Assembly: GCA_903917565.1 (NCBI GenBank)
Contig: CAIXBB010000007.1
Location: 62,001 to 126,000 of the forward strand
DNA from: an uncultured cyanobacterium
GTDB lineage: Bacteria > Cyanobacteriota > Cyanobacteriia > PCC-6307 > Cyanobiaceae
Length of the DNA: 64,000 bases
Direction of reading: 5' to 3'
The position numbers were made by a program, and so were the translations under genes. Shown here piece by piece: positions 30,188 through 45,138 of this stretch (position 1 is its first letter; every line of letters begins with the position of its first letter). The notes under the pieces were generated by a model. That model was not told the DNA's origin. It did not search any database and saw only the letters and a list, made by a program, of their open reading frames with translations.

Positions 30188-30574
30188 ATGACCATCTACG
30201 TCGGCAACCTCTCGTTTCAGGCCGAACGCGAGGACCTTCTCGATCTCTTCGGCCAGTATGGAGAGGTCCGTCAGTGCAGCCTTCCCCTCGACCGGGAAAC
30301 GGGCCGCAAACGCGGCTTCGCCTTCATCGAACTGGCCGACGATGCTTCCGAGCAGAAGGCCATCGATGACCTTCAGGACGTCGAATGGATGGGGCGGATG
30401 ATCCGGGTCAACAAGGCCACACCCCGTGAAGGCAGTGGCGGTGGGGGTGGCCGCTCCGCTGGTGGCGGCTACGGCGGTGGTGGCGGTCGCCCCGGCGCTG
30501 GTGGTGGCGGCGGCGGCGGCCGCTCAGGTGGCGGCGGCTATGGCGGTGGCGGTGGCGGCGGCAATCGCTGGTGA
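30188..30574 (+). CDS. RRM-type RNA-binding protein with Gly-rich tail
   Basis: A 128-residue protein with one RNA-recognition motif (1-80): IYVGNLSF is RNP2 and KRGFAFIEL is RNP1. A C-terminal tail of glycine-rich repeats with Arg, Ser and Tyr (GGGYGGGGG) follows and ends in W. This is the cyanobacterial Rbp family, which binds RNA and is induced by cold or involved in mRNA localisation to thylakoids. The stop overlaps the GTG of the ABC exporter gene (GTGA), so the transporter is read through coupling with it. Confidence 0.93.
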   Translation: MTIYVGNLSFQAEREDLLDLFGQYGEVRQCSLPLDRETGRKRGFAFIELADDASEQKAIDDLQDVEWMGRMIRVNKATPREGSGGGGGRSAGGGYGGGGGRPGAGGGGGGGRSGGGGYGGGGGGGNRW

Positions 30575-32400
30575 CGCCAGCGGCCACGATGGCCGTTGAT
30601 GGCGTCAGGGCGTCGACCACCCCCGCACCAGGATTCCAGCGTCTGCTGGCCAGCCTGCGGCCCCACCGCAGGCTGGTTTTGCTGGCATCGGCCTGTTCGG
30701 TCCTCAACAAACTCTTCGACCTGGCTCCACCCGTGCTCATCGGCCTGGCGGTCGATGTGGTGGTCCAGGAGCGCACTTCCTGGCTGGCCGGGCTGGGCTT
30801 CAGCTCCGTTCCAGGCCAGCTGGGGGTGCTGGCGGTGCTCTCGTTCCTGATCTGGAGCGCCGAATCCCTGTTCGAGTACCTCTACGCCCTGCTGTGGCGT
30901 CGCCTGGCCCAGACCGTGCAGCACGAGCTGCGCATCGAGGCCTACGACCATCTGCAGCACCTGGAGATGGGCTTCTTCGAGGCTGGCAGCAGCGGGCGGC
31001 TGCTCACGGTCCTCAACGACGACATCAACCAGCTGGAGCGCTTCCTCGACCAGGGGGCCAACGAGATCCTGCAACTGGTCACCACCGTGCTGGCGGTGGG
31101 CGGCACGATGCTCGTGCTGTCCCCCACTGTGGCCGGTGTCTCCTTCCTGCCGATTCCGGTGATCCTGTGGGGGTCGCTGCGTTTTCAGCGGCGCCTGGCC
31201 CCCCGCTATCGGGAGGTGCGCGAGCGGGCCGGTGACCTGGCCAGCCTCCTCAGCAACAACCTCGGCGGCATGCTCACCATCAAGAGCTACGCCGCCGAGG
31301 ACTGGGAGAAGCAACGGCTGGTCGCCCTGAGCCAGGCCTACCGCGCCAGCAACGGCCAGGCCATCCGCCTGTCCGCGGCCTTCATCCCCCTGATCCGTTT
31401 CGCGATCCTGTTCGCCTTCCTGGCGATCCTGGTGATCGGCGGCCTTCAGGCCTGGCAAGGCACCATCGCCATCGGCACCTACTCCTTTCTCGTTTTCATC
31501 ACCCAGCGGCTGCTCTGGCCCCTCACCACCCTGGGCCGCACCCTCGACGACTACCAGCGCGCCATGGCCTCCACCCACCGGGTGATGGACCTGCTGGACA
31601 CCCCCATCGCCATCCCCAGCGGCGACCGTCCGCTGCCCATCGCCGTCGTCCGTGGTCAGCTCAGTTTCGAGGGGGTCGACTTCGCCTACACCGGCCGTGA
31701 CAGGCTTCTTGAGGGCTTCGATCTGGAGGTGCCCGCCGGCGCCACCCTGGGGATCGTGGGGGCCACCGGCTCCGGCAAGAGCACGATCGTCAAGCTGCTG
31801 CTGCGGCTCTACGCGATCCAGGCGGGCCGGATCCTGCTGGATGGCGTGGCGATCGAGGAGCTGACGTTGCAGGACCTGCGCCGGGCCATCGGCCTGGTGA
31901 GCCAGGAGGTGTTCCTCTTCCACGGCACCGTGGCCGAGAACATCGCCTACGGCAGCTTCGTCGCCTGCCGTGGGGCCATCGAGAGGGCCGCCGGACTCGC
32001 CGAGGCGGCCGGATTCATCAACGACCTGCCCCAGGGTTACGACACCGTGGTGGGTGAGCGGGGTCTGCGCCTCTCCGGCGGCCAGCGGCAGCGCATCGCC
32101 CTTGCCCGAGCCATCCTCAAGGATCCCCCGGTCCTGGTGCTGGATGAGGCCACCGCCGCCGTCGACAACGAAACGGAAGCCGCGATCCAACGCTCCCTCG
32201 ACCGCATCACCGCGGCACGCACGACCCTGGTGATCGCTCACCGGCTGAGCACGGTGCGCCACGCCGACCGGATCGTGGTGATGGAACGGGGGAGAATCGT
32301 CGAGAGCGGCGGGCACGATGACCTGCTGGCCAGGAATGGGGCCTATGCCGCGCTCTGGCGGGTGCAGACCGGGCTGAGGCCGGAGGAAGCCGTGCACTGA
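30571..32400 (+). CDS. ABC exporter, fused membrane and ATPase domains
   Basis: A 609-residue half-transporter of the MsbA/type IV exporter class. Residues about 25-330 hold six membrane helices. The ATPase domain follows with Walker A GATGSGKST (about 397), LVSQEVFLFHGT (Q-loop), signature LSGGQRQRIALARAIL (about 500) and Walker B VLVLDEATAAVD. It works as a homodimer to export a lipid, peptide or drug; the substrate cannot be inferred. GTG 30571 overlaps the RRM stop codon; ATG 30589 is the alternative start. Confidence 0.9.
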   Translation: MTPAATMAVDGVRASTTPAPGFQRLLASLRPHRRLVLLASACSVLNKLFDLAPPVLIGLAVDVVVQERTSWLAGLGFSSVPGQLGVLAVLSFLIWSAESLFEYLYALLWRRLAQTVQHELRIEAYDHLQHLEMGFFEAGSSGRLLTVLNDDINQLERFLDQGANEILQLVTTVLAVGGTMLVLSPTVAGVSFLPIPVILWGSLRFQRRLAPRYREVRERAGDLASLLSNNLGGMLTIKSYAAEDWEKQRLVALSQAYRASNGQAIRLSAAFIPLIRFAILFAFLAILVIGGLQAWQGTIAIGTYSFLVFITQRLLWPLTTLGRTLDDYQRAMASTHRVMDLLDTPIAIPSGDRPLPIAVVRGQLSFEGVDFAYTGRDRLLEGFDLEVPAGATLGIVGATGSGKSTIVKLLLRLYAIQAGRILLDGVAIEELTLQDLRRAIGLVSQEVFLFHGTVAENIAYGSFVACRGAIERAAGLAEAAGFINDLPQGYDTVVGERGLRLSGGQRQRIALARAILKDPPVLVLDEATAAVDNETEAAIQRSLDRITAARTTLVIAHRLSTVRHADRIVVMERGRIVESGGHDDLLARNGAYAALWRVQTGLRPEEAVH

Positions 32401-32425: not shown

Positions 32426-33358
32426 ATGAAGATGTCCCAGCCCAGGTCGGCACGTCGACGCGCCCCGGTTCTGATCGCCGTGGCCTGCGGGCTGGGAGCG
32501 GGCCTGTTGCTGGCCGGACCCCTGGCCCAGCTGATCTCAGCGAGGTCGAGCGCCGGGGGCGGCGCCTCGCTCACCAATCCCTTCGCCGCCTGGAGCGGCG
32601 GCATGGGCCGTCAGGATGTCCTGATCCTGGGCACCGACGTGGGCGGCGGCAACACCGATGTGATCGCCACCCTGCGCATTGATGGGAACCGCACCAGCAT
32701 CACCCAGATCCCCCGCGACACCTACATCGAGGCCGAGAGTTTCGGTCCGGTCAAGATCAACGCCCTCTACAGCCTGGGCGGCATCGAAGCGGTGAAGCGG
32801 GAGATCTCCCAGCGTCTCGGCCGTCCCATCCAGCACCACCTGGTCGTCAATCTCTCCTCCATCCGCCAGATGGCCGACGTCCTCGGGGGGATTGAGGTGG
32901 ATGTGCCCAAACGGATGTTCTATGTCGACCGGAGCCAGGGGCTGTCGATTGATCTGCAGCCCGGGCTGCAGACCCTGCGGGGCAATGATCTGGAGGGCTT
33001 CCTGCGCTTTCGCCATGACGAAACCGGCGACCTGGGTCGCATGGATCGTCAGCAACTGGCCCTGAAGTCCCTGTTCCGTAAACTCACACGGCCCGAATAC
33101 CTGGTTCGGCTGCCGGCGTTGATGATGGCCGCCCGCAAGGACATCAGGACCGACCTCGGACCGATGGAGCTTGGCGGCCTGATCACGGCCATGGGCAGCA
33201 CCCAGCTCGACACCCACAGGCTGGATGGCCGGCCTTTCTACAAGGGCGGCATCAGCTACTGGGACGCCGTCTGGCCGACCCCGGAGGGGGAGCCAATCGA
33301 AGCCGAAAGCGACGGCCAGGCCAACGCTACGAACGGTCGCCACCGCTTCCTTTTCTGA
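32426..33358 (+). CDS. LytR-CpsA-Psr (LCP) family glycopolymer transferase
   Basis: A 310-residue membrane-anchored enzyme. An N-terminal basic region is followed by one membrane helix (about 13-40). The LCP domain then shows DVLILGTDVGGGNTDVIATLRID, ITQIPRDTYIE, KINALYSLGG and FLRFRHDETGDLGRMDRQQ, with the Arg and Asp residues that bind the pyrophosphate lipid. LCP enzymes attach polysaccharides from lipid carriers to the cell wall in the periplasm. It is 26 bases after the exporter and converges on mgtC with a 32-base overlap of the 3' ends. Confidence 0.9.
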   Translation: MKMSQPRSARRRAPVLIAVACGLGAGLLLAGPLAQLISARSSAGGGASLTNPFAAWSGGMGRQDVLILGTDVGGGNTDVIATLRIDGNRTSITQIPRDTYIEAESFGPVKINALYSLGGIEAVKREISQRLGRPIQHHLVVNLSSIRQMADVLGGIEVDVPKRMFYVDRSQGLSIDLQPGLQTLRGNDLEGFLRFRHDETGDLGRMDRQQLALKSLFRKLTRPEYLVRLPALMMAARKDIRTDLGPMELGGLITAMGSTQLDTHRLDGRPFYKGGISYWDAVWPTPEGEPIEAESDGQANATNGRHRFLF

Positions 33359-33830
33359 GCTCCTCGGGCGGTGGAGGAGTCTCCTCGCCACTGATGGGGG
33401 AGCGGCCATCGTCACGGACGGAGAGGGTGATCAGGGCAAGGCCGAGGGCCATCAACACCGGCACCGGACTGGAAACGGCCACCGTGACACCGAGAGCAGC
33501 CGTGAACCAGATCGAAGCGGCACTGCTCAGACCCCGCACCTCCGGGATGCCGTGCTTCGAACGGACTGGAGGCACGAGGATCTCGCCGGCTCCCAGGAAG
33601 CCGACGCCCGTCGCCACCCCCTGGATCACCCGGCTGCGGGCCTGGGGATCGGGACCGGCCGCCAGAATCATCAGACAGGCACTCATACCCACCAGCACAT
33701 GCACCCGCAGCCGGTTGGGATGGGCCCGGCTGCCGTGGTGCGCCCGGTTGATCCCCACGGCCAGTCCACAGAGCACCGCCATGCCAAGCCGCAGCAGCGC
33801 TTCCAGATCCGGGCTCAACGAGAGGACCAT
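33327..33830 (-). CDS. MgtC/SapB family membrane protein
   Basis: A 167-residue protein with about four membrane helices and the MgtC pattern: LEALLRLGMAVLCGLAVGINRA (usually GLERE or similar), LRVHVLVGMSACLMIL, VIQGVATGVGFLGAGEILV, VRGLSSAASIWFTAALG. MgtC proteins support growth at low magnesium and in pathogens inhibit ATP synthase. In cyanobacteria an MgtC is linked to salt or Mg adaptation. The soluble C-terminal extension of long MgtC forms is missing; instead it has a short charged tail. Confidence 0.85.
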   Translation of the reverse strand: MVLSLSPDLEALLRLGMAVLCGLAVGINRAHHGSRAHPNRLRVHVLVGMSACLMILAAGPDPQARSRVIQGVATGVGFLGAGEILVPPVRSKHGIPEVRGLSSAASIWFTAALGVTVAVSSPVPVLMALGLALITLSVRDDGRSPISGEETPPPPEELRKGSGGDRS

Positions 33831-33947: not shown

Positions 33948-34937
33948 TTGAGGTCCGTGCGATCCGCCTTGCTTCGCAACAGCCTGAGGCTTGGGGTGGC
34001 CGCCTTCATCACCGCCGCCCTGTCGCTCTGGTTCGAGCGGATCGCCTACGTGTGGTACCCGATGCTGGCGGTGATCACGGTCATGGAGGACGGTGATGAC
34101 CTCAGCCTCCAGGCCGCCAGGGTGAGGGTGTTCGGCACGATGACCGGTGGGCTGGTGACCTTCCTGGTGCATACCGTGCTGGACGGCTGGCAGGGGGTGC
34201 TGGTGTCCCTGCTGCTGATGTTGCCCCTGCTGCGCTGGCTGGGCTGGCAGTCGGCGGCCGGGACCGCGACGCTGGTCAGCCTGATGTTCCTGATGATTCC
34301 GAGCCACGTGGCCCTGAACTGGGACTACGTGTTCAACCGCACACTGGACACGGCCATCGGCTGCGTGATCGCCATTCTGGTGGGCCTGCTGTTCTGGCCC
34401 CAGCGAGGCTTCGACCGGCTGATGCGACTGGAGCTGGGCCTGCGCAACGGATACATCGCCCAGCTGGAGCGGCAGCGGGACTGGCTCGAGGGCAGGGGGG
34501 AACGCCCCCTGCCTCTGCCCCCGGCCCAACTCAGCCATGACCTGGTGGCCATGGAACAGCTGGTGGCCCAGGAGCGCAGGGGCCCCCACGGTCAGCGCAT
34601 GAAGGGACAGCGCTGGTCCCAGCGGCTGCAGCTGTGGGCTGCGGTCCAGCACCACTGGGTGCAGTGGGAGCGGCTGCTGGCTGGCCTTCCCGACCGCCTC
34701 AGGCCAGGGGCGGCCCCCGGCGGCGATGGCGGCAACGATCCGCTGGCAGCGGGCATGGCACGCATCGGCGCCATGCTCGAGGGGGGCACGCTGCCGCCCC
34801 CGGCCCCGGACCCCCTGCCATGGCAGAACCTGGCCCGGCGCCGCTCGCTGCCCCTGCTGCCGCTGCTGGCCCTGGCCCAGGAGCAGCAGCCGCTGATGGC
34901 GAGCCTGCGCACCCTGAGCCTGGTGGCCCGATGCTGA
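33948..34937 (+). CDS. FUSC-family half protein A
   Basis: A 329-residue inner-membrane protein of the FUSC/aromatic-acid exporter type. Residues about 1-150 contain six closely spaced helices with the FUSC signatures FERIAYVWYPMLAVITVMEDGDD and NRTLDTAIGCVIAILVGLLFWPQ, followed by a soluble helical region. It is half the usual length of AaeB/YccS-type exporters (about 650-720). The second half-size gene follows with a 7-base overlap, so the two probably assemble as one exporter. Starts TTG 33948 and GTG 33957 are both possible. It is the first gene of the five-gene envelope operon. Confidence 0.8.
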   Translation: MRSVRSALLRNSLRLGVAAFITAALSLWFERIAYVWYPMLAVITVMEDGDDLSLQAARVRVFGTMTGGLVTFLVHTVLDGWQGVLVSLLLMLPLLRWLGWQSAAGTATLVSLMFLMIPSHVALNWDYVFNRTLDTAIGCVIAILVGLLFWPQRGFDRLMRLELGLRNGYIAQLERQRDWLEGRGERPLPLPPAQLSHDLVAMEQLVAQERRGPHGQRMKGQRWSQRLQLWAAVQHHWVQWERLLAGLPDRLRPGAAPGGDGGNDPLAAGMARIGAMLEGGTLPPPAPDPLPWQNLARRRSLPLLPLLALAQEQQPLMASLRTLSLVARC

Positions 34938-36013
34938 TCCGCCGCTCCGAACTGCGACTGGCCCTGACCGCCGGGCTGATGAACGGCTTCGGTGCCCTGG
35001 CCCCGCTGGCCTACGGCTTCTACGCCCCGATGGCCGTGCTGGTGGTCTGCACCGGCACCTACGGGGGCTCCATCGGCCTGGGCCGCCAGCGGCTGCTGGG
35101 GTCGGTGGCGGGAGCCCTGGTGCTGGTCGTGTCGTTCACCGGCCTCAGCCACCTGCCCCTGCCCCTGGGGCTGAGCCTGGCTCTCGTCGCCATGCGACTG
35201 CTGGGGGCGGCCCTGGGCCTGGAAGTGGGGTACAAGGTGGGCAGCAACATCATCGTGATGGGCTGGCTGGTCCATGACGGCGAGCTGGGGATCTGGGTCC
35301 CGGTGCGGCTGTTCTGGACCGTGGCCGGCATCCTCGTGGCCCTGCTGTCTCTGCGCCTCTTCTGGCCAGACCTGGCCGTGGAAAGCAACCGGCAGCGGCT
35401 GCGCCGGTTCCTGGCCGACCTCGGCGCCGCCCTCGTCAGCCAGGCCGGCCGCATCGAAGCCCCCGCCGCCCCTGTACCCCCGGGCGCCATGGCGTCCGCC
35501 CAGCGGCTGGAGCTGCAGACGGCCCAACGGTTGCGCCGTCAGCTGGTGGCGCTGCGCGACGCCATGCCGGCTGTGGCCGATGAGTTGGGCAACAACCCCA
35601 CCAGCCACGCCACGTTCCGCCTGTTCCAGCTCCTGAATGGGGCCGGCTCCCAACTGGTCGGCGTCTTCGACGGGTTGCGGCTCCTGGAGCACACGCCGGC
35701 GGAGCGCGGCCCGCTGGAGGGACTCCATGGCGCCCAGGCGGAACTGCTTCGAGCCGTGGCCGATCGCCTGGGGCAGTGGAACCACTGCCTGGAGGTGCCC
35801 CATCGGCACCGGCCAGCCCCACCGACCACGCCCCTGGAACCGCCACCTCTCTGGGGGAGCCTGGAGCGTTGGCTGCACGATCCGGATCTGGATGCCCTCG
35901 AACTGCTCCGTCTGCAGCGCAATGCCAGCCGGCTGATGCTCTGCGGCCAGGCCCTGCGCAGCATCCAGCAGGCGGAGCACCGCTGGCGGGCCCTGGGGGA
36001 GGCCCCTGCCTGA
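34931..36013 (+). CDS. FUSC-family half protein B
   Basis: A 360-residue protein built like its neighbour: helices from about residue 8 to 150 (LTAGLMNGFGALAPLAYGFYAPMAVLVVCTGTYGGSIGLGRQRLLGSVAGALVLVV, then VRLFWTVAGILVALLSLRLFWPDLAVESNRQRLRRFL) and a soluble helical C-terminal half. RLFWTVAGI...LFWP is the counterpart of the NRTLDTAIG...LFWPQ motif. The start overlaps FUSC-A by 7 bases. A two-gene FUSC is uncommon compared with a single fused chain. The OprB porin begins 3 bases later. Confidence 0.78.
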   Translation: MLIRRSELRLALTAGLMNGFGALAPLAYGFYAPMAVLVVCTGTYGGSIGLGRQRLLGSVAGALVLVVSFTGLSHLPLPLGLSLALVAMRLLGAALGLEVGYKVGSNIIVMGWLVHDGELGIWVPVRLFWTVAGILVALLSLRLFWPDLAVESNRQRLRRFLADLGAALVSQAGRIEAPAAPVPPGAMASAQRLELQTAQRLRRQLVALRDAMPAVADELGNNPTSHATFRLFQLLNGAGSQLVGVFDGLRLLEHTPAERGPLEGLHGAQAELLRAVADRLGQWNHCLEVPHRHRPAPPTTPLEPPPLWGSLERWLHDPDLDALELLRLQRNASRLMLCGQALRSIQQAEHRWRALGEAPA

Positions 36014-36016
36014 ACC

Positions 36017-37354
36017 ATGGCCGGACTTCGCTGCTCCCCGCCGAAGGCCTCCGTGCTCTGCCCTCCCCTGGCGTTCCTGCTGCTGGCCAGTGCCGCACCC
36101 GGCGCCGCCCAGCCGCCCGAACCCGTGGGCAGCCCTCCGCCAGCGGTCCCCCTGATCAAGCTCGAGTCCGGCTGGGGAAGCCTTCAGCAGAGGCTGGGTC
36201 TGCCGGCCTGGCTCGACCTGGAACTGGAGGTCCTGGCCGAACCGATGGGCAACCCCGCCGGTGGTCTGGTCCGGGAAGCGAGCTGGATCCAGCAGGCCAC
36301 CCTCGCGCTGATCGTGAGGGTCCCCAGCGACGCCGCCCGCTCAACGGAACGGGTATGGGACCGATGGGCGTTGCATGTGGCCGTCGCCAGCTACAACGGC
36401 GACCCCGCCTACGCCCAGCGGGTGGGGGCGGTGCTGCCCCTGCAGGAGGTGGCCAATCCGGTGGGGTTCTGGCTCACCCGCGCCAGTCTCCAGCGCCGTT
36501 CCTCCGACGACCGCTGGAGCCTGGAAGCGGGGTTGGTGGGCATGAACCCCGATCTTTTCAGCACCCCGATCGAAGGCTTCTACGTGCATGACGCCCTCAA
36601 CGGGGCGCCCGTGCTGTTCTCGATCCCCAACTTTCCCGTCTTTCCTGTCGCCGCACCGGGTGCCCTGCTGGTGCTGCGGCCGACCCCGGCCAGCACCCTG
36701 CGGCTGGCCAGCTTCGATCTGGCCGGCACCGACTCGGTGGCAGGGCTCCTTGGGGCCGCCAGCGGCCTTCCCCCCGGACGGGGCTGGACCCACCAACTGC
36801 AGTGGAGCTATGCCGCCCCCTGGCTCAACCGCCAGCTGGCGACCCCCATCGCCGCCTGCCGCGACGGGTCCGCCGTCCGGGCGCTGGGTCGGACCTGCTC
36901 CCAACCGGTGCAGGTGGAGCGGCAACTGCCCGGAGGCCTGCTGCAACTGGCGGCCTATGCCGGCACCGGGCCGAACCGGGGTCTGTACGGCAGCGCCACC
37001 GTGCCGATGGCGCTGCCCTGGGGTTTGGATCATCGGCTCTGGGTCGCCGCGGCCGCGGGGCTCGACACCGCCGTCAATCCCACACCCGGGTATTTCGGCG
37101 GCGGTCTGGTGAGCCAGGGTGTCCTCCCCGGCCGCCCCCTCGACCTGCTGATCCTCGGCGTGGCCCGCACGGGCTTCAGCCCGATCACCAATCCCGGTCT
37201 CAGCTACGAAGGCGTGGTGGAACTCGGCTATCAGGTGCAGATCAACCAGTCGTTCAACCTGCAGCCCAGCCTGCAGTGGATCGTCAACCCCGGCGGTGCC
37301 GGCCGGGTGCCTGGAGTCTTCGCGGCGGGTCTGCAGCTGGGTTTCAGCTTTTGA
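36017..37354 (+). CDS. OprB-type carbohydrate-selective porin without SLH domain
   Basis: A 445-residue outer-membrane protein. A signal peptide (about 15-36) is followed by a Pro-rich link and then the OprB barrel: ASWIQQATLALIV, WDRWALHVAVASYNGDP, VGFWLTRASLQRRSSDDRWSLEAGLVGMN, and the terminal strands ...GVFAAGLQLGFSF ending in Phe. It lacks the SLH anchor of the other porin in this window. Two cysteines pair plausibly in a loop (IAACRDG, GRTCSQP). Its position between FUSC and TolC genes suggests a role in the same export or uptake pathway. Confidence 0.82.
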   Translation: MAGLRCSPPKASVLCPPLAFLLLASAAPGAAQPPEPVGSPPPAVPLIKLESGWGSLQQRLGLPAWLDLELEVLAEPMGNPAGGLVREASWIQQATLALIVRVPSDAARSTERVWDRWALHVAVASYNGDPAYAQRVGAVLPLQEVANPVGFWLTRASLQRRSSDDRWSLEAGLVGMNPDLFSTPIEGFYVHDALNGAPVLFSIPNFPVFPVAAPGALLVLRPTPASTLRLASFDLAGTDSVAGLLGAASGLPPGRGWTHQLQWSYAAPWLNRQLATPIAACRDGSAVRALGRTCSQPVQVERQLPGGLLQLAAYAGTGPNRGLYGSATVPMALPWGLDHRLWVAAAAGLDTAVNPTPGYFGGGLVSQGVLPGRPLDLLILGVARTGFSPITNPGLSYEGVVELGYQVQINQSFNLQPSLQWIVNPGGAGRVPGVFAAGLQLGFSF

Positions 37355-37368
37355 AGCCGGGGAGGCCG

Positions 37369-39099
37369 ATGTCGAGCAAACTGGGCGCCGGATCGGGGGG
37401 ACGGTGGGCCATGGGGGGCAGGGGAACGGGGCGGCCCCTGGCCAGCTGGATCCTCGCGGGGCTGGCGCTGGGTCTCGTTTTCGGATCGGGGCCCCTCGCG
37501 GGCCAGCCCCTGCCGGCGGCCAGCAGCGGCGATGGGCGGCGCCTCGAGCGTCGCTGGAACGAGCTGGATCGCCAGATCCGGGTCCTTGAAGAGCTGCTGC
37601 CCGCAGAGGCGAAACCCCTCGCCGATGGGGCACTGGCCAGCCCGCCATCGCCGCCGCAGGGGACAGCGCCCCTGCCGCCGCTGGCGCTGCCGCAGGCCAG
37701 CAGCCTGCGCGAAGGCCAGCCCCAGCCCCTCAGCCTGGGGCAGACCCTGGCGATCGGCTTCGCCAACAGCCCTGCCCTGCAGGGCCGCCGCGAGGAGGTG
37801 GCGGCGGCCCTCGCCGAGCTGCAGAGCCAGATGGGCTCCTACTGGCCCCGGATCTCGGCCTACGCCGCCGCCGGCACCGACCAGGCGAGCACCAGCTTCT
37901 TTTCCCCCACCGGTTCAGGGACCCTCTTCGCTCCCAGCAATCCCTTCTTCATCCCCCCAGGCGGCAGGGCCTCCTTCAACACCAACGCCAATGCGGTCGC
38001 CGCCGGCCTGCAGCTGCGCTATGAGCTGCTGGATTTCGCCCGCACGCCAAAGGCGCGGGCCGCTCTGGCAAGCCTGCGCAGCGCCCGTCTGGCCTATGCC
38101 GATGCCCTGCGGCGGCTGCAATTGTCCCTGAGCGAGAGCTACTACCTGCTGCAGCGGGCCGACCAGCTCGTGCGCATCCGCGAGGCCGTGGTGCGCAATG
38201 ACCTGCTGATCCTCCAGGACAGCCTGGATCTCAAGCAGGCGGGGCTGGTTCCCCGGCTGGATGTGCTGCGGCGCCAGGCGATCGAAGCCGGCGGGCAGGA
38301 ACTGCTGATCGCCGCCCTGGCGGAGCAGGCGATCGCCCGCCGCCGCCTGGCGGCCGTGCTCAATCTCCCGCCCCAGCTGACCCCCGCCGCCGGCGACCCG
38401 ATCCGCCTCCAGCCAGGCTGGCCCCTGGATCTGGAGGCCAGCCTGGTGGCCTCCTACCGGGACAACCCGGAGCTGGAAGCCCTCCTGGCCACCCGCGAAG
38501 CCCTGCTGCTCCAGAAGGATGCGGTTGCCGCCGGACTGCTGCCGAAGCTGTCGCTGTTCGCCAGCGCCGGCGTCGGGGCCAACAACGCCAACAGCTGGAA
38601 CGTGCGGGTCGCCGACGGCGGCTGCTGCGGCAGCACGGTGGCCACCTCGCTCAACACCTACGGCAGCGACTGGTCGGTGGGGCTGGCGGTGAGCTGGCTG
38701 CTCTTCGATGCCGGGAGCACCCGGGGGCAGGCACGGGCCCTGGCCCGCCGGGGGGACGCGTTGGCCCAGCAGTACGCCACCCAGCGCAACGACATCCGGC
38801 TGCGGATCGAGCAGGCCTTCTTCGGCCACGAAGCCAGCCTGGCGCGGCTCGTGGCCGCCAGGCGGGGTGTGGCGGCAAGTCTGGAGGCGTTCCGTGACGC
38901 CCGCCTCCGCTACCAGGCGGGACTGAGCAGCGAGCTGGATCTCTCCAACACCCAGGAGCGGCTGATCAGCAGCCTGGTGCAGCGGCTCGAGGCCACTGTG
39001 AACGTGAACGTCACCTACGCCCAGCTGCTGCGCGAACTGCTGCCGATGCCCACGGATCCGGACGCTCCGGTTCAGCCACGCCTGCAATGGACCCCATGA
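37369..39099 (+). CDS. TolC-family outer-membrane efflux channel
   Basis: A 576-residue outer-membrane factor with two OEP repeats. A signal-like segment (about 20-45) is followed by a coiled coil and Pro-rich link (about 57-110), then the TolC helical barrel (LSLGQTLAIGFANSPALQGRREEVAAALAELQSQMGSYWPRISAYAAAG ... YELLDFARTPKARAALAS ... VGLAVSWLLFDAGSTRGQARALARR). The region LRYQAGLSSELDLSNTQERLISSLVQRLEA is a TolC signature. It should connect an inner-membrane pump to the outside. It overlaps the next gene by 13 bases. Confidence 0.88.
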   Translation: MSSKLGAGSGGRWAMGGRGTGRPLASWILAGLALGLVFGSGPLAGQPLPAASSGDGRRLERRWNELDRQIRVLEELLPAEAKPLADGALASPPSPPQGTAPLPPLALPQASSLREGQPQPLSLGQTLAIGFANSPALQGRREEVAAALAELQSQMGSYWPRISAYAAAGTDQASTSFFSPTGSGTLFAPSNPFFIPPGGRASFNTNANAVAAGLQLRYELLDFARTPKARAALASLRSARLAYADALRRLQLSLSESYYLLQRADQLVRIREAVVRNDLLILQDSLDLKQAGLVPRLDVLRRQAIEAGGQELLIAALAEQAIARRRLAAVLNLPPQLTPAAGDPIRLQPGWPLDLEASLVASYRDNPELEALLATREALLLQKDAVAAGLLPKLSLFASAGVGANNANSWNVRVADGGCCGSTVATSLNTYGSDWSVGLAVSWLLFDAGSTRGQARALARRGDALAQQYATQRNDIRLRIEQAFFGHEASLARLVAARRGVAASLEAFRDARLRYQAGLSSELDLSNTQERLISSLVQRLEATVNVNVTYAQLLRELLPMPTDPDAPVQPRLQWTP

Positions 39100-40487
39100 C
39101 GCTTTCCCCCGAAGCGATCGACGCCGCCGACGCCAGGCGTGACTGGAGCCTGCGCCGGGGCCAGGTGGTCGCCCTGCTGCTGGCCGCCCTGCCGCTGCTG
39201 CTGTTGCTGCAGCCCTACCAATGGCTTTCAGCCCTGGGCTTCCGGCTCCAGCGTGCCTGGCCCCTGGGAGGGGGAGGGGGCGTCCCGGGAGGCAGCCTGC
39301 TGCTGGTGTTCGCGGGCACGGCGCTGCTGACCCTGCTGGCGAACGGCCCCCTGCAGGGCGGCAGGGGAGGGGGTCTCACCGGGGTGCTGGCCCTGCAGCT
39401 GGAGAGGGTGCAGCAGGGTCCGGCCCGCTCCGCGGCCCTCGCCTCCCTGAATCTGAGGCGTCAGCTGGCCCGCCTGCCACTGCTGCTGCTCACCCATGGA
39501 GCCAGCCTCACCGTGGGCCTGGAATCCCCCTCCGCCTCCCTGGGGGCGAGCCTGCTTCTGGCGCTGCGGGACAAGGTGGCTCCGCTGAAGCGTCTGCCCC
39601 TGGAGGTGCTGCTGGCAACCGGTGCCGGAGCCGGCCTGGGCATCGCCTTCAACTCCGTCCTGCTGGGGGTCACCTACGCCGTCGAGGAGCTGTGCAGACG
39701 GCGCTCAGCCGCCCTCATCAACGGCACCCTGCTGACCACGGGACTGGGCGTGGTGATGGGGGCCGTCACGGGCCTCTGGGAGAGCACGGCCCAAGCGGCA
39801 CCCGCCCACCACACCGGCGTCTCCATGCTGGTGGGAGGAGGCGGCCACCTGATCGCGCCGGCCCTGCTGCTGACGCTGGCGGCGGGGTGGCTGGGCGGGG
39901 TGTTCACGGCCAGCACCGCCTGGATGGCCAGCCGCTGGAGCCAGTGGCTCTCGAGGCCGGCCGGACCGGGGGGATCGGCCATCCCCAGGCCCCTGGTCTG
40001 GGTGCTGGGGGCTGCGCTGGTGATCAGCGTGGCCGCAGTCGCCAGCGACGGCTGGAGTCTCAATGACGGCCAGTTGCTGATCCTGCGCATGGCCTACGGC
40101 GAGGATCGCCCGGGCCTTGAGGTCCTGCCCTGGCGCCTGCTGGCCTCGGCACTGAGCATCGCCATCGGCGCCCCCGGGGGTGTCATGCACGACGCCATGT
40201 CCCTGGGAGCCCTGTTGGCAGGACCCCTGATCGGCGATCTGCCGCCACTGGAACGGCAACTGCTGGTGTGGACCGGAGCGACTGCGCTGTTCAGCGGCGC
40301 CTGCCGCACCCCCCTGTTCTGCGCCCTGTTCGTGGCCCAGATCGCCGGTACTGTCGCCCTCGTGCCCCTGCTGCTGCTGGTGGCCGCCTTGGCGGCACCG
40401 ATCGGTCGCTGGGTGCGCGCCGACACCTGGAACGAGGTGCAGCTGGAACGGTGGCTTGAATCTCACGGAGCCAACCCTGCAGAATAG
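39087..40487 (+). CDS. Divergent ClC-type chloride channel/transporter
   Basis: A 466-residue polytopic protein related to ClC. The order of helices and three partial signatures can be seen: LANGPLQGGRGGG (place of GSGIP), VGLESPSASLGASL (place of GREGPxV, with the gating Glu kept) and APGGVMHDAMSLGALLAG (place of GGIFAPxLxxG). All three have substitutions in the selectivity-filter residues, so conduction of chloride is not assured. It overlaps tolC by 13 bases and is the last gene of the operon. Confidence 0.7.
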   Translation: MDPMTLSPEAIDAADARRDWSLRRGQVVALLLAALPLLLLLQPYQWLSALGFRLQRAWPLGGGGGVPGGSLLLVFAGTALLTLLANGPLQGGRGGGLTGVLALQLERVQQGPARSAALASLNLRRQLARLPLLLLTHGASLTVGLESPSASLGASLLLALRDKVAPLKRLPLEVLLATGAGAGLGIAFNSVLLGVTYAVEELCRRRSAALINGTLLTTGLGVVMGAVTGLWESTAQAAPAHHTGVSMLVGGGGHLIAPALLLTLAAGWLGGVFTASTAWMASRWSQWLSRPAGPGGSAIPRPLVWVLGAALVISVAAVASDGWSLNDGQLLILRMAYGEDRPGLEVLPWRLLASALSIAIGAPGGVMHDAMSLGALLAGPLIGDLPPLERQLLVWTGATALFSGACRTPLFCALFVAQIAGTVALVPLLLLVAALAAPIGRWVRADTWNEVQLERWLESHGANPAE

Positions 40488-40745: not shown

Positions 40746-41828
40746 TTGTCCAGCCATGAATCCAAGAGGGATGCATTGAAATCACCCGAGATCCCTGAGG
40801 GCGAAAAGCTCCGCCTCGCCAAGCTTCGCTCACTGCGCCTCCTGGATACTGGCGAGGACATCCGTTTCGATCGCCTGACCCGGTTGACCGGGCGCATCTT
40901 CCAGGCACCGATCTGCGTGATCAGCCTGGTGGACGAAGATCGGCAGTGGTTCAAATCCTGTGTTGGTCTCACGGTCTCTGAAATGCCAAGAAGCATGTCC
41001 TTCTGCGGGCATGCGATTACCGGAACAGATGTGCTGATCGTTGAAGATGCCCTCGAAGATGAGCGCTTCTTTGATAACCCCATGGTGCTGAATGATCCGC
41101 ACATCCGGTTCTATGCCGGATGTCCGCTGATCCTGGATCAGCGCAAGCTAGGCACCCTCTGCATCGCCGACCACTCTCCCCGATCCCTGGATCAGGAGCA
41201 GATCGACATTCTCAGGGATCTGGCCAGCCTGGTGGAGCAGGAGCTGGCAGCTACCCTGATGGCCACCAAGGATGAGCTCACCGGCCTCGAAAACAGGCGC
41301 GGTTTTCTGGCCCTTGCCCAACAGAGCCTGCAGCTCTGCACCCGCCAAGGGTTCCCTGTTTCTCTGCTCTATCTCGACCTCGATCATTTCAAGACCATCA
41401 ACGACCTGCATGGCCATGGGGAAGGGGATCGGGTACTGATCACCTTTGCCGATCGGATCAAGCATATCTGTCGCGATTCCGATGTCGTTGCCAGGCTTGG
41501 CGGTGATGAATTCGTCTTGCTGCTGATCAACTCAACCCGCGAACAGTCTGAGGCGGCCATCCATCGGATCAAGGAAGCTCTGATGCATGACAACAGACTT
41601 TCTGGCAAGACCTACGACATTGATTTCAGTTATGGAATCACCTCCTATCAGCCCGAAAGACATGAAACGATCGCCGAACTTCTCGCCGATGGGAATGCTC
41701 TGATGCACGAGATCAAACTGCTCCGGTGTGAGGATCAGTACTGCGGCAATGGCACAGCAACACCGTCGGCTGCAGCGGTTTCCCCCGGGTCAGGGTTTGC
41801 CAACAGATTCCAGGAGCCCACTGGCTGA
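40746..41828 (+). CDS. GAF-GGDEF diguanylate cyclase
   Basis: A 360-residue cytosolic protein that should make cyclic di-GMP. Residues about 20-165 are a GAF domain (FDRLTRLTGRIFQAPICVISLVDEDRQWFKSCVGL, SMSFCGHAITG). The cyclase domain (about 172-325) has an intact GGDEF at 252-256 and the product-inhibition I-site RDSD five residues before it. The C-terminal 35 residues are low-complexity. The start is TTG 40746 or TTG 40776. The GAF domain contains Cys and His near SFCGHAI, as in many redox or light-sensing GAFs, but no clear chromophore motif. Its GC is lower than its neighbours, and no EAL or PilZ partner is adjacent. Confidence 0.88.
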   Translation: MSSHESKRDALKSPEIPEGEKLRLAKLRSLRLLDTGEDIRFDRLTRLTGRIFQAPICVISLVDEDRQWFKSCVGLTVSEMPRSMSFCGHAITGTDVLIVEDALEDERFFDNPMVLNDPHIRFYAGCPLILDQRKLGTLCIADHSPRSLDQEQIDILRDLASLVEQELAATLMATKDELTGLENRRGFLALAQQSLQLCTRQGFPVSLLYLDLDHFKTINDLHGHGEGDRVLITFADRIKHICRDSDVVARLGGDEFVLLLINSTREQSEAAIHRIKEALMHDNRLSGKTYDIDFSYGITSYQPERHETIAELLADGNALMHEIKLLRCEDQYCGNGTATPSAAAVSPGSGFANRFQEPTG

Positions 41829-41892: not shown

Positions 41893-42084
41893 TCACTCCG
41901 GACGTGAGGACGTCCAGCGCTCGATCCTGTAGCCCAGGATCACCACCAGCACCACCAACCAGAACCACAGTTCCGGTGGATTGGCATTGCACAGCACCAC
42001 CAGCAGCACCACCTCACTGATCAACCAGGGAAGTTCCTGGCGCAGCAGGGGATTGCGGATCTGCCACCATCGCCGATCGCTCAT
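41893..42084 (-). CDS. Small membrane protein coupled to the HlyD gene
   Basis: A 63-residue protein: a basic N-terminus (MSDRRWWQIRNPLLRQEL), then a long hydrophobic stretch (about 20-55, probably two helices: LISEVVLLVVLCN and LWFWLVVLVVILGYRI), ending in ERWTSSRPE. Its ATG overlaps the HlyD stop (ATGA), so it is translated with the adaptor. No family recognised; an accessory component of the secretion apparatus is a reasonable guess. Confidence 0.6.
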   Translation of the reverse strand: MSDRRWWQIRNPLLRQELPWLISEVVLLVVLCNANPPELWFWLVVLVVILGYRIERWTSSRPE

Positions 42085-43433
42085 GGCAACGGACCGCTCT
42101 GGCGCAGGGAGGGGCGGTCCCAGAGGCGATCGATGCGCAGCGAGCGGTAGCCGCCGGTGAGCGAGCGAAGCCCGGGGAGCAGATAGGTGATCGGCGTGCG
42201 CCATTCCACATAGGCATGGGCGGCGATGGTGAGGCCTTCCCGCACGGGGAACACGCCGCTGCCCCCCGAAAGGGTCCAGCGGTAGCCGTCCCGGCTGGTG
42301 GGGTCCCGCTCCAGCTCGATCTCCGCGCGCATCACCGGACCCCGCTTGAGCAGGTCACGGGCCAACTGGGGGTTGCCGATGGTGGTGGAGATGTCCTCCT
42401 CCGTGGCCGGCAGGGTGAGCACCTGAATCACCCTGCCCACGATTCCGCCGAACCGGCCCCGCTGGTCCCACAGCGGCACCACCTCCACCGGCAGGCCCGC
42501 CGGCAGCCGCCGGGCATCGGCAGGGGCGAAATAGGCCACGGCCCGCAGCAGCGGCGCCCGCACGCCGGTGGTGGCGGCCCGGCCCAGGGTCCCCAGGCGC
42601 TGTCCGGTGGCGACCGTCTGGCCCTGGATCACCTGCAGGTCCAGCACCGTGCCGTCCCGGTCGGCCAGCACCTGGCCGTCATAGGCCAGGCGAGCCTCGG
42701 TGACCCGGATCTGACGGCGCATGTCGTCGATCTGGTAGCGGCGCCGCAAGGCCTGGGTCTGGATGTCGAGTCGGATCTGCTCGTAGCGGGTCAGAAGATC
42801 CTTCTCCTGAATCCTGACCGCGTCGAGACTGACGCTGGTGCTGGTCAGACCCTGCTCGGCCACCACCACCTCGGAGGCCAGGGGGGCCACCACCTCCCGC
42901 TGGCTCAGCCAGCGCAGGCTGCGCACCTTCTCTCTGTATGTGGCCGCCAGCTCCTGGTAGCGGCGTCGATCCTGGGCCAGCTTGGCCAGGGAGGTGTCGA
43001 CGCTGAGCTTCTCGCTGGCCAGCCGCAGGGCATCGCGGCGGTCGAGCTCGCGGTTGTCGCGCTCCAGCTGGGCCAGGTTGCCGCGTTGCTGCTGCAGCTG
43101 GCGGTCGAGCACGGGCAGGTACAGCTGCATCAGCACCTGCCCCTTGCGAACCTCGTCCCCGACGGCCACCCGCAGGCGTCGCACCTGACCGCCGGCGCGG
43201 GCATCGAGCAGGCCGGCGGTTTCGGGATAGAGCAGCACCCCCTGCCCCATTACCTCCGTGGGCACAGGCCAGAACAGGACCCACATCCCCAGGGCCCCAC
43301 CCATGGCCCCCAGGCACGCCCCCACCTGACCCCGATCACCCAGGCCCCGCCAACGTCGGCGCAGGCCAGCGACCGGCCGGCGAGGCGGCGCTGCACCGGT
43401 CGAGGGAGCGGAGGTGGCCATCGCCGCCAGCAT
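42081..43433 (-). CDS. HlyD-type adaptor of the NHLP bacteriocin-export type
   Basis: A 450-residue membrane-fusion protein. One membrane helix (about 38-58), a split biotinyl-lipoyl domain (GGQVRRLRVAVGDEVRKGQVLMQLY and later GTVLDLQVIQGQTVATGQRLGTLG) and a long coiled coil in between (about 105-270). The arrangement and the C-terminal region (EVVPLWDQRGRFGGIVGRVIQVLTLPATEEDISTTIGNPQLARDLL) match the NHLP (nitrile-hydratase leader peptide) secretion proteins that work with peptidase-ABC transporters. No such ABC gene lies in the window. A small membrane gene follows by ATGA overlap. Confidence 0.8.
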   Translation of the reverse strand: MLAAMATSAPSTGAAPPRRPVAGLRRRWRGLGDRGQVGACLGAMGGALGMWVLFWPVPTEVMGQGVLLYPETAGLLDARAGGQVRRLRVAVGDEVRKGQVLMQLYLPVLDRQLQQQRGNLAQLERDNRELDRRDALRLASEKLSVDTSLAKLAQDRRRYQELAATYREKVRSLRWLSQREVVAPLASEVVVAEQGLTSTSVSLDAVRIQEKDLLTRYEQIRLDIQTQALRRRYQIDDMRRQIRVTEARLAYDGQVLADRDGTVLDLQVIQGQTVATGQRLGTLGRAATTGVRAPLLRAVAYFAPADARRLPAGLPVEVVPLWDQRGRFGGIVGRVIQVLTLPATEEDISTTIGNPQLARDLLKRGPVMRAEIELERDPTSRDGYRWTLSGGSGVFPVREGLTIAAHAYVEWRTPITYLLPGLRSLTGGYRSLRIDRLWDRPSLRQSGPLP

Positions 43434-43453: not shown

Positions 43454-44518
43454 TCAGCCCGCCAGGACGCCCAATCCGGCCAGGGTCGAAGGGTCGGCCA
43501 CACCCGTGATCACATCAGCCAGCAGGGGAGCCAGCACCGGTACCTGGGCGAAGGCGCCCCCGAAACCGCTGAACACCCACAGGCCCGCCTCCCCCGGCAG
43601 CGGCCCCACCAGGGGAAGCCCGCCAGCGCAGAAGGCCACCGGCACCTGGCGATAGGGGGCCGGCAGGGCGGCCAGCAGCGGATCGAGTCCGGCCAGCCCC
43701 CGGCGCAGGCGCCCTTCCATGGCCTCTGGCGGCGGCGGCTCGCCGGTGTCCAGGCCCGGCCGCACCAGGCTGATCTGTCCCAGCAGCAGCCCCTCGCCCC
43801 AGGGGGCGAAACCGGCATCGACGATCCAGCGCTCCTCCTGCAACCCCGCCGCCGCCCCCTCCAGCGCCGGACGCTGCCAGTGGCGCGGCTGCACGATGCG
43901 GCGCCGGACGGCGTGCCGCCACCAGGGACTAGCGGCGGGCTTGGGGAGGATCGGGCGCGCCGGCAGGACCAGCACCCCGGCCCAGCTGGCGCGGTGACGC
44001 TCCGGCAAACCGGGGGCGAGGGAGCGACATCCGGCCCCGGCCGCCAGTACCACCTGCTCCGCCAGCAGGGGCCCTCCCGGCTCCAGCTCCAGTTTCCAGC
44101 CACCGGCCACCGGCCGCGGCGGGGCCAGGACCCGCGCCCGCCGCAGCTCGACCCCGGCCGCCGCCAGCACCCGGGGCAGGGACGCCATCAGCACGGTGCT
44201 GTCCACCTGGGCGAAGGGGGGTCGCAGCAGGGTGGTGCCCCAGCCGCCGCCATGGAGGCGCAGACCGCAGCGCCGCCAGCCGAGGGGACCATGGCGGCCC
44301 TGCAGCCGTCGCCAGCGGTCGGGGGCCTCGCGCAGCAACGGGCCGAGGCGACCGGGGGCTCCGGCCCACCAGGCCACCCCGCCGTAACTGAGCGCCGTGG
44401 CCTTGGCCTCCGCCGCATCGACGAGGGTCACCGGCAGGCCCCGCTCCACCAGCTCCAGGGCCAGCAGGCTGCCAGACAGGCCGCCCCCCACGATGGTCAG
44501 CCGGCCAGGGGCAGACAC
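43454..44518 (-). CDS. FAD-dependent amine oxidase of the DAO family
   Basis: A 354-residue flavoprotein with the N-terminal FAD fingerprint LTIVGGGLSGSLLALELVERGLPVTLVD, the second FAD strand near EQVVLAAGAGCRSLAPGL and the C-terminal WVFSGFGGAFAQVPVLAPLLA typical of glycine/D-amino-acid oxidase-like proteins (ThiO, DadA, SoxB). Substrate is unknown. It is in the same direction as the genes on both sides: the PsbP-like gene ends 2 bases upstream, and HlyD starts 20 bases downstream. Confidence 0.8.
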   Translation of the reverse strand: MSAPGRLTIVGGGLSGSLLALELVERGLPVTLVDAAEAKATALSYGGVAWWAGAPGRLGPLLREAPDRWRRLQGRHGPLGWRRCGLRLHGGGWGTTLLRPPFAQVDSTVLMASLPRVLAAAGVELRRARVLAPPRPVAGGWKLELEPGGPLLAEQVVLAAGAGCRSLAPGLPERHRASWAGVLVLPARPILPKPAASPWWRHAVRRRIVQPRHWQRPALEGAAAGLQEERWIVDAGFAPWGEGLLLGQISLVRPGLDTGEPPPPEAMEGRLRRGLAGLDPLLAALPAPYRQVPVAFCAGGLPLVGPLPGEAGLWVFSGFGGAFAQVPVLAPLLADVITGVADPSTLAGLGVLAG

Positions 44519-44520
44519 CC

Positions 44521-45138
44521 CTAGATCTGCAGGGTGAAGGACCCGATCACCACGGAGAACAGATCCTTCACCTTGTTCCAGCGGGCTTCGTTGGTGCTGG
44601 CGGCGAAGGTGTACAGCCGGCCGCGGTCCACCACCACGGTGGCCAGCTCGTGGCGGTCCCGGTCGGCCAGATGGACCGTGTACTCGAGGTCGTAGTAGGT
44701 GCGGCCGCCCTGCTCGCGCTCGTGGGCTACCACCAGTTCGGCGTCCCGGCCGCTGCCTTCCGGTGAGATGACGCTGCGGCGCAGGGTCTCGCCCACCTCC
44801 ACGGCACTGCCCAGCTGGCTGAGATCCCGGTCGGGGGTGACCTCGGACACCACCAGGCTGAGGGTTTCGTCGCTGTTGATCAGGTCGTGGAAGACCACCT
44901 GGGGGCCATTGCTGACCTGCACCCGGGTCCAGCCGGTGGGGTAGAGGAAGGCATAGCGGCCATCGGGGCTCTGGAAGGAATTCAGGCCCGCGGCGGCGGC
45001 GCTGCAGCTGGTGATCAGGGTGCCCAGTAGCAGGGACAGCAGAAAACCCACCAGGCGTGATGTCCCCTGGGGATTAAGCCGCAGGCTCGGGGCACTCCCC
45101 AGGGCAATCCGGGAATCGCGGTGCAGCGGTGAGGCCAT
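44521..45138 (-). CDS. PsbP-like (CyanoP) photosystem II lipoprotein
   Basis: A 205-residue protein. A hydrophobic segment ends in a lipobox LITSC with Cys45 as the lipid-modified residue, so the mature protein is lipid-anchored at the lumenal side of the thylakoid. The mature part matches PsbP: GLNSFQSPDGRYAFLYPTGWTRVQVSNGPQVVFHDLINSDETLSLVVS, and TYYDLEYTVHLADRDRHELATVVVDRGRLYTFAASTNEARWNKVKDLF. CyanoP assists photosystem II assembly. The 44-residue pre-Cys region is longer than needed, so a later start is possible. It is followed after 2 bases by the FAD oxidase. Confidence 0.9.
   Translation of the reverse strand: MASPLHRDSRIALGSAPSLRLNPQGTSRLVGFLLSLLLGTLITSCSAAAAGLNSFQSPDGRYAFLYPTGWTRVQVSNGPQVVFHDLINSDETLSLVVSEVTPDRDLSQLGSAVEVGETLRRSVISPEGSGRDAELVVAHEREQGGRTYYDLEYTVHLADRDRHELATVVVDRGRLYTFAASTNEARWNKVKDLFSVVIGSFTLQI

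Follow-up and report, generated by a model that had tools for sequence, protein, structure and literature searches.

The closest described counterparts of the system treated here are exporters built around an inner-membrane protein of the FUSC family. AaeXAB of Escherichia coli exports aromatic acids, according to the accessible part of its description (PMC9301823). For Bucl8-FusCDE of Burkholderia, the accessible part of the source lists an outer-membrane factor, a FUSC protein of 733 amino acids (aa), a 67-aa small protein and a 293-aa adaptor, all in one operon (PMC7682875). Here we analyze a 64,000-nucleotide stretch (the window) of contig CAIXBB010000007.1 from an uncultured cyanobacterium of the Cyanobiaceae. 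It carries a locus that we read, with a probability of roughly 0.8, as an exporter of the AaeAB/FusCDE type with a split FUSC component, tripartite (or tetrapartite if the small membrane protein c3 is counted) and encoded in two convergent units.

Like AaeXAB, which works with TolC, the locus combines a FUSC inner-membrane protein, a membrane-fusion adaptor and a small membrane protein (compared with the K-12 aae region). AaeB, however, is one protein of 655 aa, whereas two half-size genes are present here; moreover, the adaptor unit is convergent, the TolC gene lies inside the operon, c3 shows no kinship with AaeX, and the adaptor, HlyD, is no more than a distant relative of AaeA. The same four types of parts occur in Bucl8-FusCDE, but with a single operon and a single FUSC protein as against two units and two halves, and neither a porin nor a ClC protein belongs to that system as far as the accessible description goes (PMC7682875). 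Among the hallmarks of FUSC tripartite exporters, a FUSC-family protein, a linked adaptor and a TolC-type outer-membrane factor are found; no DUF1656 match was found for the small protein, a protein of different sequence occupying a like place, and the parts are not all in one operon. On our best reading, what the locus adds to the known exporters is the split, probably heterodimeric FUSC component and the distribution over two convergent units.

Open reading frame (ORF) calls and translations place five adjoining genes, FUSC-A, FUSC-B, OprB, TolC and ClC, on the plus strand of this freshwater-type cyanobacterium (Table 1). FUSC-A and FUSC-B overlap by 7 bases, OprB follows after 3, TolC after a further 14, and ClC overlaps TolC by 13, in agreement with the initial annotation as to genes, order, junctions and common direction. 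The family assignments hold as well, all scores exceeding the curated Pfam cut-offs: FUSC_2 with 39.4 bits for FUSC-A and 35.5 bits for FUSC-B (cut-off 25.6), OprB with 64.5, OEP with 153.2 and Voltage_CLC with 88.2 bits. ClC had also been labelled divergent, which applies to its sequence at most and not to its direction, as it reads with the other four genes. Because relatives keep GTG 33957 (10/10) and hardly ever TTG 33948 (1/10), the start of FUSC-A was moved to the former, which is probably the translation start. Ratios of nonsynonymous to synonymous substitution rates (dN/dS) of 0.17-0.35 for the five genes, from six pairs compared (five in the case of OprB), indicate purifying selection. 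In TolC, the first OEP match starts at residue 125, after a long N-terminal part (37369-37740) that by eye consists of a charged helix-like stretch followed by a proline-rich one.

The statement that this operon contains no periplasmic adaptor is true of the plus strand. A convergent minus-strand unit, however, lies 1.4 kb past ClC and encodes HlyD and c3, overlapping by 4 bases. HlyD scores 199.9 against a cut-off of 156.2 on the NCBIfam model TIGR03794 (NHLM_micro_HlyD). Its predicted structure (predicted local distance difference test, pLDDT, 80.1) shows an N-terminal helix, beta domains and a two-helix alpha-hairpin (~70 residues); its structural matches are the adaptors MacA, EmrA, AcrA and MexA. 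c3 has two hydrophobic stretches (by eye) and conserved PW, LL and WFW residues, a pattern retained even within paralogous sets, and directly follows HlyD in 32/32 near-full HlyD genes of the named loci described below. A DUF1656/AaeX identity of c3 found no support: Pfam detected no DUF1656 in three c3 proteins, and alignment with AaeX (hhalign) gave a probability of 0.8%. The genome itself holds a precedent for the order HlyD-small protein-FUSC, namely a second FUSC locus (contig C35; L034 6986-11137), where HlyD, a 68-aa LWFW protein and a 379-aa FUSC protein lie on the minus strand with TolC divergent.

FUSC-A and FUSC-B are homologous over their membrane and cytoplasmic parts (hhalign 97.6%, E=3.4e-12). 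The FUSC-A model, built from 21 sequences (pLDDT 78.8), predicts six membrane helices and a cytoplasmic helical domain, the latter by analogy with ALMT. All nine Foldseek matches in the PDB with probability 1.00 are ALMT anion channels, the next match having 0.21. In a second structure comparison AtALMT1 was aligned over 318 residues (Z 16.2, root-mean-square deviation 6.2, ~12% identity); this is a good but not overwhelming score, because helical models may reach Z ~13 without kinship. In its predicted fold, FUSC-A is thus similar to plant ALMT channels over nearly the whole length. Plant ALMT is a homodimer and is not known to have an adaptor or outer-membrane partner, whereas two different halves are present here, which probably form an inner-membrane heterodimer. 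In one relative (G024; L054 4656-5672) both halves are fused into a single hybrid ORF of 338 aa.

The adaptor unit proved to co-occur with FUSC-A. A survey of 141 genomes of the window's family (90% completeness requested; search thresholds 1e-30 for FUSC-A and 1e-60 for HlyD, both surveys taken as covering identical genome sets) yielded 58 genomes with both genes, one with FUSC-A only (G120), two with HlyD only (G084, G126) and 80 with neither. The pump without an adaptor, as initially annotated, is thereby contradicted, since an HlyD protein and a small membrane protein stand alongside and 58 of the 61 genomes having either FUSC-A or HlyD have both. The two genes lie 1.2 to 11.1 kb apart in 55 of the 58 genomes and 32 kb apart in G067, and are split over contigs in G092 and G182. 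The HlyD threshold also lets in a paralogue of 53-59% identity: the full-length match in G182 is of this type, beside a fragment of the orthologue, and the sole match in G104 (56%) contains two stops. Since genomes are not independent, we take the co-occurrence as evidence of a module and not as a probability.

At shorter distance, FUSC-A was compared with 60 genomes, the window's own included, and matched 28/37 of the same genus and 2/23 others. HlyD orthologues of at least 67% identity are present in 24/28 FUSC-A-positive and 0/9 FUSC-A-negative same-genus genomes, and some of the latter have less similar HlyD relatives, up to 58% in G028. Four positive genomes lack an orthologue: G011 and G016, which are incomplete with a cut contig, G015, with both genes decayed, and G030, with FUSC only at the nuoD side. 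From the matches, 38 stretches were retrieved and their genes clustered. The slot between the LCP-MgtC and FAD-PsbP flanks is variably filled, with the window arrangement, with FUSC-A/B, a gene termed c17, TolC and a second FUSC pair, or with TolC followed by FUSC-A/B. The c3-HlyD unit is convergent in every stretch reaching that far, except in G010, where it is on another contig, and in the decayed G015. Four window-type stretches (L036, L039-L041) have an extra gene behind the GGDEF gene, HlyD lying beyond the stretch, ~11 kb from FUSC-A. The c17-type gene (L063 5147-5995; also L048, L062 and L046) marks the second slot type. Its product, a 282-aa membrane protein encoded between FUSC-B and TolC, was considered as a K+ channel and then left unassigned, as Pfam gave no ion-channel family and no PDB relative was found by sequence; it is weakly similar to MnhB only (Pfam E=0.03, NCBIfam E=0.002).

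Scanning contigs of GTDB species produced 54 named loci, titled Cyanobium, Synechococcus (including marine WH7803, L200), Aphanothece, Vulcanococcus, Microcystis elabens or metagenome-assembled genomes (MAGs); 27 are slots complete from flank to flank, 21 are cut or incomplete and six lie at the nuoD side. FUSC, TolC, c3 and HlyD occur in all 27 complete slots, and HlyD reads against the first FUSC gene every time. Gene order varies while content is constant: TolC stands before or after FUSC, c3-HlyD separates FUSC from TolC in L205 and L220, and one or two FUSC pairs are present, the FUSC genes numbering two in 15 slots and more in 12. One contig bearing a cyanobacterial slot (L218) is titled as a Bifidobacterium breve MAG, the record being mislabelled or contaminated.

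Gain, loss and decay also affect the block as a whole. An empty site, with LCP-(MgtC)-FAD-PsbP and no block, is found in six of the nine FUSC-A-negative same-genus genomes (L160, L161, L163, L164, L166, L167); in the other three, the contig of G033 shows the right flank only (L165), and neither flank was matched in G018 or G028. The slot is empty in G030 too (L162). Co-decay is seen in G015 (FUSC-A with stops, HlyD a fragment), in G138:C98 (stops in both) and in G104 (FUSC-A fragment, HlyD with stops). In G024, where the slot FUSC pair is the hybrid ORF, the slot HlyD is in pieces with stops, and further copies exist elsewhere in the genome. FUSC and HlyD are unlinked yet co-occur in G010, G002 and G035; the slots of G002 and G035 retain TolC and c3-HlyD with a FUSC pair located beside nuoD, that of G002 having lost its FUSC pair and kept TolC, ClC, c3 and HlyD intact.

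Genes, families, predicted folds, linkage, co-occurrence and co-loss, all shown in this analysis, lead to the following model. FUSC-A and FUSC-B would be two ALMT-like protomers pairing as an inner-membrane heterodimer, which an anionic small molecule enters from the cytoplasm. HlyD would span the periplasm, so that the dimer loads cargo into an HlyD-TolC conduit, with the operon's TolC as outer-membrane exit, and c3 would be a small inner-membrane accessory assisting HlyD or the FUSC dimer. Physical assembly, transport direction and organic-anion cargo are carried over from AaeAB and FusCDE (PMC9301823, PMC7682875), and we infer both the heterodimer and co-expression of the two convergent units. 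That the FUSC halves and TolC are parts of one exporter, plausibly for anions, had been proposed before and is supported by gene linkage and the ALMT-like predicted fold. OprB and ClC would have been inserted later, in the window's clade only.

Several observations weigh against this exporter. The FUSC-A model is middling, with pLDDT ~60-80 across much of the membrane part; the best ALMT match has a Foldseek E of only 1.6e-3, with TM-scores of 0.42-0.50, and PhoU matches the cytoplasmic part at Z 12.7. The FUSC-A profile aligns with the N-terminal half of E. coli AaeB at a weak 53% (hhalign), and kinship of FUSC-B with AaeB is not recognizable by the same method (1.9%). The Fisher P of 5e-36 for co-occurrence treats genomes as independent and is hence overstated, much of the association being expected from shared ancestry and physical linkage alone. 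G084 and G126 carry a 70% HlyD with no FUSC-A match, G120 shows the opposite, and in the six nuoD-side loci among the 54 the FUSC pair stands alone, HlyD not being in the stretch. With 14 HlyD_D23 matches and four OEP genes, the genome has other adaptors, and HlyD (~55%)-small protein-TolC sets exist without FUSC alongside (L133-L136). Finally, TIGR03794 bears the name 'NHLP bacteriocin system secretion protein', which hints at peptide export.

The last two points would fit an arrangement in which HlyD-c3 and TolC serve an ABC exporter, of peptides (NHLP-type) or of another kind, with the FUSC operon as a mere neighbour, the more so as HlyD exceeds the TIGR03794 cut-off and an ABC gene flanks the slot. 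We regard this as unlikely. The flanking ABC gene remains where the whole block is absent (7/7 empty slots), and the linked inner-membrane partner is FUSC, unlike in TIGR03794 systems: none of 70 matches to the NHLM ABC2 transporter model TIGR03797 in the genome exceeds the cut-off (best 422 versus 709 bits; this search did not include the sister model TIGR03796). The C35 locus has an HlyD whose best family is likewise TIGR03794, though below cut-off (104.1 bits), and which stands in the same gene run as FUSC. Still less probable is the single adaptor-less pathway for anion export or exchange across both membranes to which the initial annotation assigned all five plus-strand proteins. Tight packing in one direction speaks for it, and the order is retained in 8/13 window-clade regions (from 12 genomes), though not outside that clade. 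Yet an adaptor adjoins the operon and co-occurs with FUSC-A, the five genes differ in distribution (FUSC-A in 28/37 same-genus genomes, OprB in 12/37, ClC in 13/37), and in slots of other clades no OprB was found and ClC only as an unrelated insert (L184). In addition, OprB has been lost in G027 and the slot FUSC pair in G002 with the remainder kept.

Table 1. Features of the exporter locus and its flanks (window coordinates)
Feature	Coordinates	Strand	Basis
FUSC-A, half-size FUSC transporter	33957..34937 (ORF open from TTG 33948; GTG 33957 preferred)	+	ORF, Pfam, model
FUSC-B, second FUSC half	34931..36013	+	ORF, Pfam, hhalign vs FUSC-A
OprB-family porin	36017..37354	+	Pfam OprB
TolC/OEP outer-membrane channel	37369..39099	+	Pfam OEP
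ClC-family protein	39087..40487	+	Pfam Voltage_CLC
GAF-GGDEF gene between the two units, excluded from the pump	40746..41828	+	Pfam, dS
c3, 63-aa membrane protein directly behind HlyD	41893..42084	-	ORF, clustering, hydrophobicity by eye
HlyD membrane-fusion adaptor	42081..43325 (ORF open upstream to 43433)	-	TIGR03794, model
Left flank of slot: LCP gene (+), MgtC gene (-)	32426..33830	mixed	Pfam
Right flank of slot: FAD oxidoreductase and PsbP genes	43454..45138	-	gene calls
ABC gene flanking the slot	30571-32400		Pfam

OprB shows how the operon was extended. The same-genus genomes with OprB, the window's own included, carry it at 68% identity or more, broken in one; it occurs in 4/27 complete named slots and six of the cut ones, all of the window clade, and was not found in slots of other clades among the named loci and same-genus stretches. 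Long matches elsewhere are 28-38% identical. Of the five window-clade regions departing from the five-gene order, G027 retains an OprB remnant with the other locus genes intact, G002 has lost FUSC and has a frameshifted OprB, G024 has the FUSC hybrid, and two are cut stretches of G013. Judging from this distribution, OprB is a later window-clade insertion into a FUSC-TolC operon and not a core part. Pfam at E up to 0.01 gave OprB only, without an SLH domain.

A porin for ferrous iron or an iron ligand, acting with FeoB outside the exporter and relocated into the FUSC-TolC operon, is a tentative explanation that we rate somewhat below even. In six of nine regions retrieved (L224-L228, L231), an OprB relative of 34-36% identity is the next gene after feoB, preceded in five of the six by a feoA-family gene according to clustering, Pfam having been run for FeoB and FeoA in L224 alone; the other three regions (L223, L229 and the cut L230) are without feoB. 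Of the 13 window-clade genomes compared, ten have an intact OprB together with an intact FeoB, and in two (G002, G027) both genes are broken. Perfect co-loss is ruled out by G017, with internal stops in FeoB and an intact OprB, leaving 12/13 concordant. These are related genomes in draft assemblies, in which the G002 FeoB reaches a contig end and the G017 stops may be errors. An iron role agrees with OprB-like iron porins of cyanobacteria, as reported in the accessible parts of two papers (PMC9723758, PMC9705863). Conversely, the Pfam name of OprB denotes a carbohydrate porin, and the feo-side and pump-side genes would have to be one gene that moved. Neighbourhood and concordance together hint at an iron role, and the feoB neighbourhood suggests a function that can be tested for porins with a carbohydrate-selective annotation. 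In G019 (L223 6314-9366), an OprB relative and a distant ClC (33%) point towards each other, and other genes stand in front.

ClC at 75% identity or more is likewise confined. Six of the 27 complete named slots contain ClC, one being the unrelated insert L184, and so do five of the cut ones, all of the window clade. In L184, from C. usitatum, ClC lies among unrelated genes in the ~7 kb that separate a fragmentary FUSC-A from an intact copy, and was rejected as a second recruitment. By its distribution ClC, too, is a later window-clade insertion into the FUSC-TolC operon rather than a core part. It may balance charge or protons during anion export by the pump as a clade-specific accessory, which we consider doubtful. 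The overlap with tolC is consistent with such a role, as is its presence in every window-clade region reaching its place, including those where OprB or FUSC is gone, and the gating and proton glutamates (E146, E201) are conserved. However, apart from L184 it is missing from pump slots of other clades, and in six other genomes the stretches around ClC genes of 46-47% identity gave no match to FUSC, TolC or HlyD. The selectivity motifs are also unlike the canonical GSGIP and GxFxP of Cl- exchangers: GGVMHD aligns where E. coli ClC has GGIFAP, and GGGLT was placed by eye for GSGIP.

A broader proposal would join these parts into a ligand-export and iron-return locus, in which an organic anion (iron ligand) leaves via FUSC-HlyD-TolC, iron returns via OprB to FeoB and a proton-coupled ClC balances charge. 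The exporter would then be a widespread picocyanobacterial ALMT-like heterodimer that has its own dedicated adaptor and a novel small subunit, porin and ClC having been recruited in the window's clade; taken as a whole, we think this improbable.

The FUSC-A/HlyD system is present in 58/141 sampled family genomes, and its named copies include that of marine Synechococcus WH7803. It illustrates that FUSC genes of half size are retained in pairs and that a 'missing' adaptor may sit on the opposite strand. Exports of such cells feed aquatic bacteria, and part of this flow becomes testable, because the exporter offers clear deletion targets. Among the titles listed by searches of open-licence PMC none dealt with this cyanobacterial system, which is no proof of absence.

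The GAF-GGDEF gene was considered as a sixth operon gene and excluded by its dS (0.6-1.2 versus 0.2-0.6 for the operon genes, roughly 2-5 times higher) and a 258-base gap; the 2-kb bin containing it has a reduced GC content (59%). A scan of the locus found no promoter-like sites and two terminator-like sites, against 2.9 expected. The paralogous set L133 (5851-9455), like L134-L136, comprises two small proteins (81-98 aa) and TolC (40%), with genes for a c3-like protein and HlyD (55%) converging on them; no Pfam family was found for the small-protein pair of L133. Three of these four sets adjoin GMC oxidoreductase and glycoside hydrolase genes.

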